From positions 1 through 5,223 of the forward strand of contig JALGZR010000145.1 of assembly GCA_025774805.1 (NCBI GenBank): a stretch of 5,223 bases of DNA. The letters run 5' to 3'. The position numbers and the translations under genes are program-made. Every line of letters begins with the position of its first letter. Position 1 is the stretch's first letter. This document shows positions 201 to 5,223 of the stretch, in pieces. The DNA comes from a bacterium. Lineage in GTDB: Bacteria; ARS69. The notes beneath the pieces were generated by a model, which was not told the origin of the DNA, did no database searches, and was given only the letters and a program-made list of their open reading frames with translations.

Positions 201-1994
201 CTACCGCGTCAGCACGACCGGCCGGGTGTGGACGATGCCCGCCGCCCGGAGACGGAAGTAGTAGACCCCGGAGGGCACCCGGCGGCCGGTCTCGTCGCGG
301 CCGTCCCACTCGATCTCGTGCAGTCCGGAGTCGCGGCGCTCCGCGAGCAAGTGCCGCACCCGCCTTCCGGCGACGTCGTACACCGCGAGCTCGACCCGGT
401 CCGGGTGCTTCAGCTCGAACGAGAAGCGCGTTCGGTCCAGGAACGGATTCGGGAACGCCAGCGGCGCCCGGCCGTCGGCGACGCGATCGCCCACTCCGGT
501 GCCCGAGGGGAGGAGCGTGAAGGTGTGCCAGGCGTCGGGCGCCACCCGCGGGGAGCCCTCCTCGCGTCCCGACCGGTCCGAGGCGAGGACGTAGTAGTCC
601 GCGATCGCCTCCACGGAGGAGGCGGGGATCATCGCCTCGTATTCGTCCCCCCCCACCGCCGACATCCCGAGCGCCGTCCAGGAGCCCCCGTCGAGCCGGT
701 AGTGGAGGTCGACGGACGCGATTCCCTGGAGACTCCGGTCGTCGACGAGGGCGCGGATGACCACCGGTCCGGCGACGTCGCCCACCACGGGGACGTGGGC
801 CACCCGCAGCATGCCGGCGTCCATCACCCCCTTCGCCCGGCAGTGGAGGGCGTCGTCGGTGAGCCAACCGCCGTAGGCGTACCCCCGGACGATGTAGCCG
901 GGAGCCGCCGCCCGGTAGACGTCGAGGGCCGCGCTGTCGCCGGTGGCGTTGCTGAACATCGGGACGTAGATCCCGTCGTTCACGAACAGGCTATTCGTGT
1001 AGGACGCGGGCTCTCCTCCTCCGATGTTCTGGCAGTAGACCCGGACGACCTCGTACGGGCGGCCCGTCGAGGCGAGGAGCGAGGCGATCAGCGTGGCCCG
1101 CTGCTCCAGGTTCGAGTAGGTGTAGTGGGAGGGCCAGACCTCTTTGATCAGCACGGTCTCCTCGTCGAGGAACTTCGCCCACGTGTCGATGTGGTGGATT
1201 CCCCCGCTGGAGATGTCGTCGATCACCCGGTAGTCCGTGATCCCGTAGTAGTCGAACATGAGCTGGTCGACCTGCGCGGGCGTCATCCCGTTGTGGGCCA
1301 GGGCCTCGTCGTAGACGAGATCCGTCGACATGGCGAAGTGCGCGCCGTCGCACATGTAGTTCCCGCCGGTGTGCCACATGTCGTGCTCGAAGACCGGAAT
1401 GCCGTACTCCGCGCCGAACTCCGACGGGATCCGGTCGTCGTTCGGCCGCCACGGCCGGTTGTACACGTGGTCGATGATTCCCAGGTCGCCGTTGCCGTCG
1501 AAGACGAACCACGGGCCGTAGTCCCGGACCCAGATCGTGTCGTTCGGCTTCACGAGCCAGTCGACCATCGTCGTGTCCACTCCGCCGGCGGCGAGGTTGC
1601 TCTTCGCCTGGTTCAGGTAGCCCGAGGAGACGATCACGTGCAGGGTCACGACGTCGTCCAGGTCGCGCAGCAGCGAGTAGGGGACCCCGAGGGGGTAGCG
1701 AACGAGGACGCCGGTGACCGGCTCCCACTCCGCGCAGTTCCGGACGGGGGCGGTCGGCGGGGGATCCGCGCGCAGTCCGCGCGGATCGATCGGGCGCCCG
1801 CCGCTCTCCAGCAGACGGTCCCGCTCGAGCCGGGTCTCGTGGTGCGGGATCAGCTCCTCGAGCCCGTCCACGTCCCACTCGGCGAGCGCGGGCGGAGCCG
1901 CCGCGGCGAGGAGAAGGGCGACGAACGGAGACGGGAGACGGGTGGCGCGCCGAAGGGCTCGGAGAGCGCGACGGTTTCGGGGAGAGTGCGGCAT
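201..1994 (-). CDS. Secreted peptidylarginine deiminase-like protein (PAD_porph family) with Ig-like and FlgD-like C-terminal domains
   Basis: Predicted 597-residue exported guanidine-modifying hydrolase, probably converting arginine in peptides or proteins to citrulline. Residues 1-38 are a signal peptide: Arg-rich n-region, FVALLLAAAAPP core, ALA cleavage site before EW. The catalytic domain spans about 84-400. Its motifs are WVRDYGPW (155-162, candidate Asp158), GGNY (210-213), HID (268-270, His268 and Asp270), YTNS (332-335) and ALHCR (382-386, candidate nucleophile Cys385). The spacing (110 and 115 residues) is close to that I recall for P. gingivalis PPAD (Asp130, His236, Asp238, Cys351). 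Agmatine deiminases instead carry a GGG-x-IHC type nucleophile motif. An Ig/FN3-like domain (about 405-492) and a FlgD-like domain (about 511-597: PNPF, VYDVAGR, WDGRD, SGVYYFRL) follow, as in PPAD. The ATG at 1994 is chosen because AGGGAG lies 6 nt upstream and the signal peptide then starts well; an in-frame ATG at 2024 would add 10 residues but has no spaced ribosome site. Substrate is inferred: free arginine derivatives or agmatine are not excluded. Confidence 0.88.
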   Translation of the reverse strand: MPHSPRNRRALRALRRATRLPSPFVALLLAAAAPPALAEWDVDGLEELIPHHETRLERDRLLESGGRPIDPRGLRADPPPTAPVRNCAEWEPVTGVLVRYPLGVPYSLLRDLDDVVTLHVIVSSGYLNQAKSNLAAGGVDTTMVDWLVKPNDTIWVRDYGPWFVFDGNGDLGIIDHVYNRPWRPNDDRIPSEFGAEYGIPVFEHDMWHTGGNYMCDGAHFAMSTDLVYDEALAHNGMTPAQVDQLMFDYYGITDYRVIDDISSGGIHHIDTWAKFLDEETVLIKEVWPSHYTYSNLEQRATLIASLLASTGRPYEVVRVYCQNIGGGEPASYTNSLFVNDGIYVPMFSNATGDSAALDVYRAAAPGYIVRGYAYGGWLTDDALHCRAKGVMDAGMLRVAHVPVVGDVAGPVVIRALVDDRSLQGIASVDLHYRLDGGSWTALGMSAVGGDEYEAMIPASSVEAIADYYVLASDRSGREEGSPRVAPDAWHTFTLLPSGTGVGDRVADGRAPLAFPNPFLDRTRFSFELKHPDRVELAVYDVAGRRVRHLLAERRDSGLHEIEWDGRDETGRRVPSGVYYFRLRAAGIVHTRPVVLTR

Positions 1995-2168: not shown

Positions 2169-2201
2169 GTCGATCAGACGTCGATCAGACGTCGATCAGA
2201 C
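2169..2201. repeat. Three tandem 11-bp direct repeats (GTCGATCAGAC)
   Basis: Perfect copies occupy 2169-2179, 2180-2190 and 2191-2201, followed by a partial fourth (GTCG, 2202-2205). The period is close to one helical turn, so a bound protein would contact the same DNA face. The array lies at about -49 to -81 from the predicted deiminase transcription start, where class I activators bind. Direct repeats with 11-bp phasing are typical of OmpR/PhoB-type response regulators. The array also holds the stop codon of the YkgJ-type gene; since 11 is not a multiple of three, its three TGA triplets on the minus strand fall in all three frames. It could instead be a chance tandem duplication or replication slippage product. 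Confidence 0.6.
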
Positions 2202-2858
2202 GTCGGGGCACTCTTCGGGCGGCGGAAGGAAGCGATCGAAGCCGATCTTCCGGAGCTTGTCGAGGCAGTCGGGAAGAAGCATCGCGTCCTCGAACGACAC
2301 GTTCTCGTCTTCGACCGCGTCCCGGACCATTTGCAGGACCATGGCCTCGGCCTCCGGATCGGTCCGCTCCTCGGTAGGGCAGGGGGACCACCGGAGGTAC
2401 TCGGCGAAGGGCTTCTCCGACTTCTTCTTCTTGCGGTAGTCGACCTCGTACGGGAAGCGGCGGCAGATGGTGGGACGGACGCCGTACTCGACGCACCGCT
2501 TCGTCGCGGGGTCGTAGAAGACGCAGTTGCCCCGCTTCTTCGCCAGGCGGGGCATCCGGTCGATCGCCGTCGTGTACTTTCCCTTCCTCTTCTTGAACGT
2601 GAAGGTGCCGACGATCAGATCCCCGTATCCGCTGTCGACGAGGTGCGCGATGTCCCGCAGCGAGAGGAGGATCCCCGATCCCGGATCCTCGTGGACGCAG
2701 CAGCTCGTGGTGCAGGTCTGGCAGTCGGGAATCACGTAGGAGCCGTTCGTCGAGCGCAACGGAACGTCCGCCGGGTCGAGCACGTCCCGGGAGTCGATCT
2801 CCTTCGCGGCCAGCCGAAGAAGCTTCTTCGTGAGCTTGCCTCGTTTTCGCGTGTCCAC
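2196..2858 (-). CDS. YkgJ-family cysteine-cluster protein (putative Zn/Fe-chelating)
   Basis: Predicted 220-residue soluble protein of the YkgJ/UPF0153 family (Pfam CxxCxxxCC, putative zinc- or iron-chelating). The cluster is C46-x2-C49-x3-CC53-54. It is followed by the family's second block: C112 (GNCVFY), C122 (KRCVEYGVRP) and C132 (ICRRFPY). C160, C198 and C207 add possible ligands. A basic N-terminus and a KKKKS run (143-147) are present; there is no signal peptide or membrane segment. The family's biochemical function is poorly known; some members are annotated as Fe-S oxidoreductases, and FliB-type methylases share a similar cluster. The GTG at 2858 is chosen because AAGGAAGGA lies 9 nt upstream. 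An in-frame ATG at 2954 would add 32 low-complexity residues and has no ribosome site. The gene diverges from the Nudix gene across a 180-nt gap. The stop codon lies inside the third 11-bp repeat. Confidence 0.87.
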   Translation of the reverse strand: MDTRKRGKLTKKLLRLAAKEIDSRDVLDPADVPLRSTNGSYVIPDCQTCTTSCCVHEDPGSGILLSLRDIAHLVDSGYGDLIVGTFTFKKRKGKYTTAIDRMPRLAKKRGNCVFYDPATKRCVEYGVRPTICRRFPYEVDYRKKKKSEKPFAEYLRWSPCPTEERTDPEAEAMVLQMVRDAVEDENVSFEDAMLLPDCLDKLRKIGFDRFLPPPEECPDV

Positions 2859-2867
2859 GTAAGTCTG

Positions 2868-2876
2868 TCCTTCCTT
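2868..2876 (-). promoter_or_regulatory. Shine-Dalgarno site selecting the GTG start of the YkgJ-type gene
   Basis: AAGGAAGGA on the minus strand, a strong anti-16S match, ends 9 nt before the GTG at 2858-2856. It is the best ribosome site in the window and fixes a non-ATG start. I see no convincing -10/-35 pair for this gene in the GC-rich stretch upstream of it. Confidence 0.65.
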
Positions 2877-2960
2877 CGCAAGGCCCGAAGAGCGAGACGG
2901 CCCGGCGGTCTCGCCCGGCCCGCGGCCTCGAGCCGCCGGTGTCGGGGAGCGCATCGGCCG

Positions 2961-2989
2961 GGGACACCGTGGGGGATTTCTGCTAACCT
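2961..2989 (+). promoter_or_regulatory. Candidate promoter for the Nudix gene
   Basis: GGGACA (2961-2966, four matches to TTGACA) is followed 17 bp later by TAACCT (2984-2989), which keeps the key first T, second A and last T of TATAAT. A TG extension sits at 2981-2982. This predicts a start near 2996 and a leader of about 43 nt before the Nudix ATG. It lies in the gap between divergent genes, where a promoter is expected. The match is moderate. Confidence 0.4.
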
Positions 2990-3038
2990 CGCCCGGGAGG
3001 TCAGTCCCTCCGAAGCATCGGATTCTCGGGAGAAACCC

Positions 3039-3491
3039 ATGGATCGGCAACTCGAAACTTCCTCGGGCGGCGTGATTTACCGGCGCTCGCCCGAAGGGGT
3101 CGAGGTCGCCCTGACACAGACCAGCCGGGGCGCCATGTGGTGTCTGCCCAAGGGTCGAGTCGAGGAGGAGGAGACGATCGAGGAGGCGGCCCTGCGGGAG
3201 GTGAAGGAGGAGACCGGCCTGACGGGGGCGATCCGGCAGCCCCTCCGCCCGATCGAGTACCGCTACACGGCCCGCGACGCGAACGGAGAGCGCACCCCGA
3301 TCAAGAAGACGGTCCACTTCTTCCTCATGGAGTATCGAGACGGGTCCACCGCCGACCACGACACCGAGGTGGTCGACGTCCGGTGGTTTCCCCTCGACGT
3401 GGCCGGCCGGCTCCTCCACCACCCCGGAGAACGGGACGTGCTCGTTCTGGCCAAACGGGCGCTGAACGCGGACGCCTCCGGGCCGAGCTGA
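3039..3491 (+). CDS. Nudix hydrolase, probably diadenosine polyphosphate or (d)NTP type
   Basis: A compact 150-residue Nudix protein. The Nudix box is complete at 39-61 and fits Gx5Ex7REUxEExGU: Gly39, Glu45, Arg53-Glu54, Glu57-Glu58, Gly60, Leu61, with the catalytic metal-binding glutamates in REVKEE. The lead-in WCLPKGR (34-40), the start TSSGGVIYR (7-15) and the later strand KKTVHFFLMEY (89-99) with VRWFPLD (114-120) resemble short Ap4A/Ap6A hydrolases such as Thermus Ndx1 more than 8-oxo-dGTP MutT. Such enzymes clear alarmone-like dinucleoside polyphosphates in the cytoplasm. The ATG is supported by GGGAG at 3028-3032, 6 nt upstream. A membrane glycosyltransferase-like gene starts 47 nt after the stop on the same strand with no terminator visible between, so the two are probably co-transcribed. 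Family is certain; substrate is inferred. Confidence 0.93.
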   Translation: MDRQLETSSGGVIYRRSPEGVEVALTQTSRGAMWCLPKGRVEEEETIEEAALREVKEETGLTGAIRQPLRPIEYRYTARDANGERTPIKKTVHFFLMEYRDGSTADHDTEVVDVRWFPLDVAGRLLHHPGERDVLVLAKRALNADASGPS

Positions 3492-3538
3492 GCCCTTTCC
3501 CCGCCTTCCCCGACCGCGAGCCGGGTCCGGGAGCCGAT

Positions 3539-5223
3539 GTGCACGCCACTTCCGAACCCCGACGGCCCGCCGATTCCGAGTCCCGACCGTCCACCGACTC
3601 CGATTCCGGACGGCCTCCCGATTCCGCCGTCGTTCCCATCGCCGTCCTCGGATTCCTGTGCGGCTTCGCGCGGGCGTGGACACGTCCGGTCACGACCGAC
3701 GCGACGTACCAGCTCCTGCGCACGGGAGGCGAGCTGCTCTTCGGGTCGCTGGAGGGCTACGCGACCCCGCCGGGAGGGGACGGCGCCCCGCTCCTCGGCG
3801 CGCTGATCACCGCTCTCAGCGGGGTGTTCGCCGGGGGTCAGGACCGGATCGCGCAGCTGGTCGGAGCCGTCCTTCTCGGGGCCTCGGCCGCGTCCCTCGC
3901 GGCCACTCTCGGGCGGGTCGCGGATCGGGCGGCGGCGCTGTTCGGAATCGCCCTTCTCGTGCTTCCCCCCGCCTTCGCCACCGCCTTCGCCGCGCGTCCC
4001 GACGCCGCCCTCGCGGGTTTTCTTCTCGTGGACGCGTTCGGGCGCGTGCTCGACCGGGGGCGGACGCCCCGGGCGACACTCGGCGCCTGGCTGGGAGTGC
4101 TCGCGGCACCCGTGGCGATTCCGGCGGCGGTCGGGATCCAGCTCCTTCCCGACGGACGGCGGCGGACGACGCGCGATCTCCGACGGGGAGCGGGGATCCT
4201 CGTCGTGGCGGCGATCGTCGGCGCCCTCTCGCTCGCGCTCCCGGCGGGAAGTCGCGGCGAGATCCTCGCGAGCCTCTTCACCGGATGGGGCGTCCCCCTG
4301 GGGGGGATCTCCTCGACGCTGACCGCGCTGCGCTTCGACTGGGCGGGGGGCTTCCTCCTCGTCTTCCCGCTCGTCGTGCCCTGGCTGCTTCGCGGCGCCT
4401 CCACCCTCCCCCTCGCGGTGACGGGATCCTGGGCCGGGGCGGCCGTGTTCGCCGTCGTCCTCTCCCGGGAGGACGTGTTCCGGGAGAGTGCCGCCGCGCT
4501 GCTGCCCTCGACCTGCCTGCTCGTCTCCGTTCTCATCGCCCGTCTCCCCGATCCGGGGAGGGAGGCGGGGGCGCCCTCCCGCGCGCTCCTGCTCGCCATG
4601 ATCCTTCCCCTGATCCTCCTCGTGCTCGGAGAGAGCCGCGACCGTCGCCACCGTCTCGCGCTCGGGGTGGAGGCCGCCCGCCTCGCCCAGATCGGCGGCG
4701 TCCTGCGGGACGACTCGATCGGCGAAGGACCCGTTCTCGCGCGGCGCCCCGGGGCGCTGGCGTCCTACGTGGAGCGACCGGTTCTCGGTCTCGCCCGCGC
4801 GACGACCCTCAAGGAGGCGGCCGGGGGCGGGGAGCGGCCCGGAATCGTCGTGCTGACGCACGGCCGCCTGCCGAAGGGGCGGGAGGAGACGAGGCTCTTC
4901 GAGGGCCCGGAGTTCCTGGGGGAGTACGCTCCGTTCTCGTTCTGGCGCGGGCGCTCCCTCGAGACCTTCGAGGTCGTCTGGAGGCGGCGGGCTCCGGCGA
5001 CCGGAGCGCGGGTCGACCCCGAGTACGCGCGGGCGTACGCCGCGGGGCTCCGGGCCGAGAGCGCCGGCGATCTCGAGGGTGCCCGCCTCGCGTTCGAGCG
5101 GGCGGCGGAGCGCGAGCCGGCTTCCCTCGGACTCGCCCGGGAGGCGCTGGGAAACGTCCTGGCCCTCCGAGGCGAGGACGCGCTCGCCCTGCGGGCGTTC
5201 GAGGATGCGCGCCGGGACCCGGC
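3539..5223 (+). CDS. Multi-pass membrane protein, GT-C (GT39/ArnT-like) glycosyltransferase candidate with C-terminal TPR repeats (3' truncated)
   Basis: An uninterrupted frame of 561 codons runs off the right edge. Residues 1-30 are a polar Ser/Asp/Pro/Arg tail with repeated Asp-Ser pairs. About ten or eleven hydrophobic segments follow between 31 and 364 (for example 31-47, 104-124, 131-151, 180-202, 217-235, 268-284, 291-308, 349-364). The first loop contains TTDATYQLLRTG (52-63), placed like the catalytic Asp loop of GT-C polyprenyl-phosphate-sugar transferases; Asp54 is the candidate. ARPDAALAGF (152-161) resembles a later conserved GT39 segment. Residues 365-490 are a soluble region. 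Two 34-residue TPR-like repeats follow (493-526 or so, with GDLEGARLAFERA, and 528-561), and more may lie beyond the edge. The GTG at 3539 has GGGAG 5 nt upstream (3529-3533); there is no nearby in-frame ATG. Probable role is sugar transfer from a lipid carrier at the membrane, but O-antigen-ligase-like or other functions remain possible. Confidence 0.78.
   Translation, partial: MHATSEPRRPADSESRPSTDSDSGRPPDSAVVPIAVLGFLCGFARAWTRPVTTDATYQLLRTGGELLFGSLEGYATPPGGDGAPLLGALITALSGVFAGGQDRIAQLVGAVLLGASAASLAATLGRVADRAAALFGIALLVLPPAFATAFAARPDAALAGFLLVDAFGRVLDRGRTPRATLGAWLGVLAAPVAIPAAVGIQLLPDGRRRTTRDLRRGAGILVVAAIVGALSLALPAGSRGEILASLFTGWGVPLGGISSTLTALRFDWAGGFLLVFPLVVPWLLRGASTLPLAVTGSWAGAAVFAVVLSREDVFRESAAALLPSTCLLVSVLIARLPDPGREAGAPSRALLLAMILPLILLVLGESRDRRHRLALGVEAARLAQIGGVLRDDSIGEGPVLARRPGALASYVERPVLGLARATTLKEAAGGGERPGIVVLTHGRLPKGREETRLFEGPEFLGEYAPFSFWRGRSLETFEVVWRRRAPATGARVDPEYARAYAAGLRAESAGDLEGARLAFERAAEREPASLGLAREALGNVLALRGEDALALRAFEDARRDP
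3570..3626 (+). repeat. Short in-frame repeats (CCGATTCCG) coding the Asp-Ser-rich N-terminal tail
   Basis: CCGATTCCG occurs exactly at 3570-3578, 3600-3608 and 3618-3626. The spacings (30 and 18 nt) are multiples of three, so each copy gives Asp-Ser in the membrane protein. A near copy with GACTCC lies between. The result is a disordered, acidic-serine tail before the first membrane segment, which may be a slippage-prone, length-variable stretch. Confidence 0.5.

Follow-up and report, generated by a model that had tools for sequence, protein, structure and literature searches.

The window analysed here, a stretch of 5,223 nucleotides, carries an open reading frame whose product resembles the peptidylarginine deiminase of Porphyromonas gingivalis (PPAD), and the question is whether it encodes an exported citrullinating enzyme or a member of the related agmatine deiminases. 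PPAD has been called unique or the only known human-associated prokaryotic PAD (PMC4893104, PMC6367333). The host of the window is an uncultured environmental lineage. It is quite probable, in our assessment, that the gene codes for a PPAD-type peptidylarginine deiminase that is exported and would convert C-terminal arginine to citrulline, on substrates probably supplied by a gingipain-like protease.

Each of the four other genomes examined from the window's phylum, which represent four other genera, has a full-length ortholog with 62-67% identity, so a chance open reading frame is ruled out. Divergence from these orthologs is 0.25-0.30 at codon position 1, 0.20-0.22 at position 2 and 0.41-0.50 at position 3, and the gene is under purifying constraint. 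Translation from the ATG at 1994 gives 597 amino acids and has an AGGGAG-like site upstream; an alternative in-frame ATG at 2024 gives 607 amino acids. From the ATG at 1994, the N terminus consists of an n-region of charge +7 (residues 1-20), a hydrophobic core and an ALA/E cleavage-like site, and a site of this AxA-E type is common to most orthologs.

Behind this putative signal peptide the domain make-up follows that of PPAD (Table 1), as the initial annotation had proposed for a four-part architecture. The Pfam family PAD_porph (PF04371) matches residues 109-371 (1.6e-27). The alignment with the PPAD chain reaches residue 418 of 4yt9 and thus takes in the Ig-like domain, for which strands are seen at residues ~395-496 of the predicted model. 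At the C terminus, FlgD_ig matches residues 522-584 (Pfam, 1.7e-10; 41 bits against a cut-off of 27), and the T9SS type A sorting domain TIGR04183 passes narrowly, at 24.7 bits against a cut-off of 23 (NCBIfam). In a fold search, this domain resembles the C-terminal part of PorU (6za2).

Table 1. Features of the window and residues of the deiminase, with positions in the window and the strand on which they lie.
Feature	Position	Strand	Basis
CDS, PPAD-type deiminase (secretion predicted), 597 aa	201..1994	-	
Signal-peptide-like N terminus, residues 1-38 (...PPALA/EWDV)	1881..1994	-	Charge and hydrophobicity
PPAD/agmatine-deiminase-fold catalytic domain, residues ~79-394	813..1760	-	PF04371, PPAD match, fold search
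D158, equivalent to PPAD D130 (guanidinium)	1521..1523	-	Alignment
R180, equivalent to PPAD R152 (C-terminal carboxylate clamp, indispensable in PPAD, PMC4487231)	1455..1457	-	Alignment
R183, equivalent to PPAD R154 (second clamp, after a one-residue insertion)	1446..1448	-	Alignment
G265, in place of PPAD lid Tyr233	1200..1202	-	Alignment
H268, equivalent to PPAD H236	1191..1193	-	Alignment
D270, equivalent to PPAD D238	1185..1187	-	Alignment
N334, equivalent to PPAD N297	993..995	-	Alignment
C385, equivalent to PPAD nucleophile C351	840..842	-	Alignment
Ig-like domain as in PPAD, residues ~395-497	504..812	-	PPAD alignment and model strands
C-terminal FlgD_ig / T9SS type A sorting-type domain, residues 512-597	204..461	-	Pfam, NCBIfam, PorU match
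CxxCxxCC protein gene	2196-2819	-	
NUDIX gene	3039-3491	+	
Gene for a protein without a Pfam match	from 3533	+	

The three neighbouring genes occur in the same order in two other genera. They were rejected as a functional cluster with the deiminase gene, as none has a link to citrullination. Two further features of the window were observed. Three head-to-tail copies of GTCGATCAGAC lie at and past the 3' end of the CxxCxxCC gene (2169-2205), and positions 1-147 of the forward strand hold the 3'-terminal part of a second FlgD_ig-tailed gene, which converges on the deiminase gene.

The relation to PPAD was assessed by similarity, fold and phylogeny. Among solved structures, the top match is PPAD (structures 4yt9, 5ak7 and 6i0x; phmmer, 2.3e-76, residues 78-493), at about 37% identity, whereas the best agmatine-deiminase-type chain reaches only 1.9e-13 (residues 150-373). 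The AlphaFold model (mean pLDDT 81, pTM 0.70) superimposes on PPAD with a Z score of 43 over 416 residues at 2.4 Å, covering both domains (model residues 73-497) and aligning Cys385 with PPAD Cys351; against agmatine deiminases the Z score is about 32 and the overlay is confined to the first domain. A maximum-likelihood tree was built from 63 PF04371 catalytic domains, in which chain 4yt9 of P. gingivalis PPAD is the sole Bacteroidota sequence. PPAD and 50 environmental proteins, the window protein among them, form one clade (support 100/100), with agmatine deiminases and the other PF04371 groups outside, and a grouping of PPAD with agmatine deiminases is rejected (AU test, P = 0.0037). Within the clade the PPAD branch is long, and its placement with Zixibacteria-type proteins (93/87) does not differ significantly from a position as sister to all environmental members (AU test, P = 0.30). 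A Pfam search, a tree and an overlay on PPAD were among the checks suggested by the initial annotation, and each agrees with its PPAD-like reading.

These comparisons bear directly on whether the protein could be a secreted agmatine or free-arginine deiminase, working for nitrogen, energy or alkalinity. Agmatine deiminases (TIGR03380; 2jer, 3h7c, 6b10) have the five-bladed guanidino-modifying fold, the chemistry and the catalytic residues in common with the window protein, and NCBIfam agmatine deiminase models do match it weakly (2e-9 and 2e-8). Those matches, however, amount to 37 and 34 bits against curated cut-offs of 483 and 382 (for TIGR03380, 33.5 bits against 381.8), the tree and the AU test set PPAD and its kin apart, and agmatine deiminases have no Ig domain, no sorting domain and no counterpart of the PPAD arginine pair R152/R154, which the window protein possesses. 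We therefore regard an agmatine or free-arginine deiminase as very unlikely. Judged from sequence and predicted structure, the 597-residue protein is a PPAD-type deiminase and not an agmatine deiminase, and the sequence, fold and tree parts of this verdict are solid.

Catalysis by PPAD depends on D130, H236, D238, N297 and C351 (PMC4487231, PMC4893104). All five have equivalents in the window protein, and they are conserved in every row of the alignment, including all environmental relatives. The initial annotation had named Asp158, His268, Asp270 and Cys385 correctly; to these the alignment adds Asn334 and the arginines Arg180 and Arg183. A protein predicted to be exported, with Ig-type C-terminal domains and an activity deduced from its sequence, might instead have lost catalysis and serve in binding or structure, but the invariance of the five residues and the purifying constraint at the first and second codon positions make this extremely improbable.

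Substrate choice in PPAD depends on further residues. The C-terminal carboxylate of the substrate is bound by R152, which is indispensable, and R154; Y233 forms a lid above the carboxylate, and C239 is the gate of a solvent channel (PMC4487231, PMC4893104). The equivalents R180 and R183 are invariant in 32 aligned relatives. Both arginines are kept in PPAD and in 46 of the 50 environmental clade members, and the pair occurs in none of the 12 other PF04371 rows. Many PF04371 proteins are treated as PADs; the centipede venom "centiPADs" and other members have the five PPAD catalytic residues in common, but in centiPADs the two specificity arginines are reported to be changed (PMC7864903), whereas both are kept here.

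The mouth of the active site differs from that of PPAD. Gly replaces the lid Tyr233, His replaces Asn235, Thr271 stands in place of the gate Cys239, and one residue is inserted between the clamp arginines; the C-terminal domain, for its part, is of the FlgD_ig type. The position of Tyr233 is Gly in 50/50 environmental members, and that of Asn235 is His or Gln. Around Gly265 (residues 261-270) model confidence is low (pLDDT 61). The PPAD variants C239A and C239S have about 8% activity (PMC4487231). Because Tyr233 binds the carboxylate and closes the site, and Cys239 is needed for full activity, their replacement may make specificity or rate different from those of PPAD. With Gly265 and Thr271 in place of lid and gate, the protein is best filed as a PPAD variant, and the initial annotation needs correcting in that the mouth of the active site is not identical to that of PPAD.

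An alternative explanation is an exported PPAD relative of relaxed or changed specificity that, without the Tyr lid, also takes small arginine compounds or, as an endo-deiminase, internal arginines. A peptide extended at its C terminus is reported to clash with Tyr233 and Arg152 of PPAD (PMC4487231), and loop substitutions near 231-235 alter PPAD activity (PMC10991804), so a Gly throughout the environmental members fits such an explanation. Arg152, the other blocking residue, is nevertheless kept together with Arg154 in nearly all members, and the clamp is unchanged in the window protein, although paralogs that lose Arg154 show that it can change. We hold relaxed specificity to be rather unlikely overall; the clamp arginines and the Gly at the Tyr233 position suggest that a preference for C-terminal arginine is likely kept, and it may be relaxed.

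The paralogs in question (L073, L074, L075 and L081) belong to the PPAD clade, at about 40% identity, and keep the catalytic residues; their R154 position is Tyr or Trp and R152 is partly lost, and they probably have another specificity. A separate set of PF04371 proteins (L082-L086; 586-804 amino acids, about 28% identity) is without the arginine pair and falls outside the PPAD clade.

Export of the deiminase is probable because parts of a type IX secretion system (SprA-like, PorU and PorV) are encoded in its own genome. The search covered SprA-like, PorV and PorU-like genes. An SprA_N translocon open reading frame of 2097 amino acids is present, as are PorV-family genes (best 219 bits against a cut-off of 90), and tails like the C-terminal domain of the deiminase were found in at least 150 places of the genome. 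The SprA-like sequence matched no solved structure in phmmer. Across deiminase-carrying genomes, SprA_N occurs in 27 of 30. The best-scoring PorV-family gene and a PorU-like gene lie near each other on the same contig and strand (G000:C31:313-1284, 2678-3862, minus strand), in a lineage outside Bacteroidota; reviews still treat the T9SS as a Bacteroidota system (PMC10202324, PMC5445135).

Taken together with the active site, the domain order suggests how the enzyme would work. The signal peptide would direct it into the periplasm, and the C-terminal domain would take it through the type IX system to the surface or the medium. There, Cys385 would attack the guanidinium of the arginine that forms the free C-terminal end of a peptide or protein, with Asp158 and Asp270 holding the guanidinium, His268 and Asn334 assisting, and Arg180 and Arg183 binding the substrate carboxylate; the products would be C-terminal citrulline and ammonia. 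The peptides so modified are probably those cut after arginine.

A candidate source of such peptides is encoded in the same genome. About a dozen C25 peptidases are present there (14 matched stretches), most of which were set aside as not Arg-gingipain-like. One of them, L058 (G000:C63:56817-57872, plus strand), resembles an Arg-gingipain in all the sequence features tested. Its catalytic domain matches RgpB at 2.5e-85 and Kgp at 2.8e-17, its pro-domain matches that of RgpB at 5e-29, and in Pfam it comprises a pro-peptide, C25, C25_C and a FlgD_ig tail. It keeps the equivalents of D163, H211, C244 and W284, of which D163 is the Arg-binding S1 residue of Arg-gingipain. Relatives at ~48% identity or more have E-x-D-x-x-H with the S1 aspartate in every one that covers the site. 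The deiminase may thus act on C-terminal arginines made by a protease of this type. The two would form a cut-and-cap partnership like that of Rgp and PPAD, because the co-encoded protease probably makes the substrates. Since the two genes sit on different contigs, coupling in the window's organism is a point that we infer.

The pairing was followed across genomes. The true Arg-gingipain type occurs in three of five genomes of the window's phylum, and several genomes carry the deiminase without an Arg-gingipain. In the Zixibacteria-type phylum, 38 genomes have both genes, 13 the deiminase only, 10 the protease only and 71 neither (P = 3×10−13, Fisher's exact test), and in the Krumholzibacteriota-type phylum the corresponding counts are 9, 18, 0 and 53 (P = 2×10−5), by tests that ignore shared ancestry and genome completeness. 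Gene order is stronger support for the pairing than these counts. In eight Zixibacteria-type genomes (loci L159-L166; G141, G144, G140, G139, G174, G173, G030 and G142), the deiminase and gingipain genes sit side by side in the same orientation, ~60-320 bases apart. The order is reversed in G030, and because two opposite gene orders are seen, the adjacent pairs probably represent at least two to three separate arrangements. Chance adjacency in 3 of 38 genomes has a probability of ~4e-6 for 2,500 genes placed independently.

In P. gingivalis, Rgp and PPAD are known as a pair of secreted virulence factors whose targets are host proteins, and the window's genome likewise holds an RgpB-like protease with the S1 aspartate together with T9SS parts. 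Zixibacteria-type genes, by contrast, can adjoin, with dockerin domains replacing T9SS-type tails: in one adjacent pair, each protein carries a type I dockerin at its C terminus. Cohesins were found in 8/8 dockerin-type genomes tested and were not found in the window's genome. No report of an Arg-gingipain/PAD pair outside Porphyromonas, in these phyla and metagenomes included, was found among the open-access papers listed.

PPAD-clade deiminases are widely distributed. They occur in 5/5 genomes examined of the window's phylum, in 27/80 genomes of the Krumholzibacteriota-type phylum of G016 (E 1e-40 or better) and in 51/132 of the Zixibacteria-type phylum of G029. Named carriers are MAGs labelled Krumholzibacteriota, Zixibacteria, Eisenbacteria, Latescibacterota, Gemmatimonadota and unplaced bacteria; such labels are often unreliable. 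Nearly identical deiminases (L039, L044) were seen in MAGs labelled Fibrobacter and Latescibacterota, of which at least one label is probably wrong, and in L045 a PPAD-like gene is split over two frames by a frameshift or assembly error. No relative was found on viral contigs, and plasmids gave only agmatine-deiminase-like matches (24-28%) or tail-only matches. The environmental clade members bear out the expectation that PPAD-type genes extend beyond oral pathogens, but not its novelty, since pPAD genes had been described as more widespread than thought in a passing remark that gives no environmental setting (PMC8826395).

PPAD is usually pictured as the sole or a rare bacterial peptidylarginine deiminase, a virulence factor tied to rheumatoid arthritis. 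We tentatively suggest another possibility, toward which we lean less than toward the enzyme assignment itself: Arg-gingipain and PPAD-type deiminase may be an old surface system of uncultured FCB-group bacteria that cuts at arginine and caps as citrulline, sometimes encoded by a cassette of two genes whose products share dockerin or T9SS tails, and the virulence pair of P. gingivalis may be a late use of it. A broad environmental family that has PPAD's catalytic residues and is paired with Arg-gingipain makes it possible to ask what C-terminal citrullination does without an animal host. Candidate roles are the use of peptides, the release of ammonia, the shielding of peptides from carboxypeptidases and the processing of surface proteins. 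The family-wide natural loss of Tyr233, in turn, provides a convenient comparison when asking how PPAD selects C-terminal rather than internal arginine.
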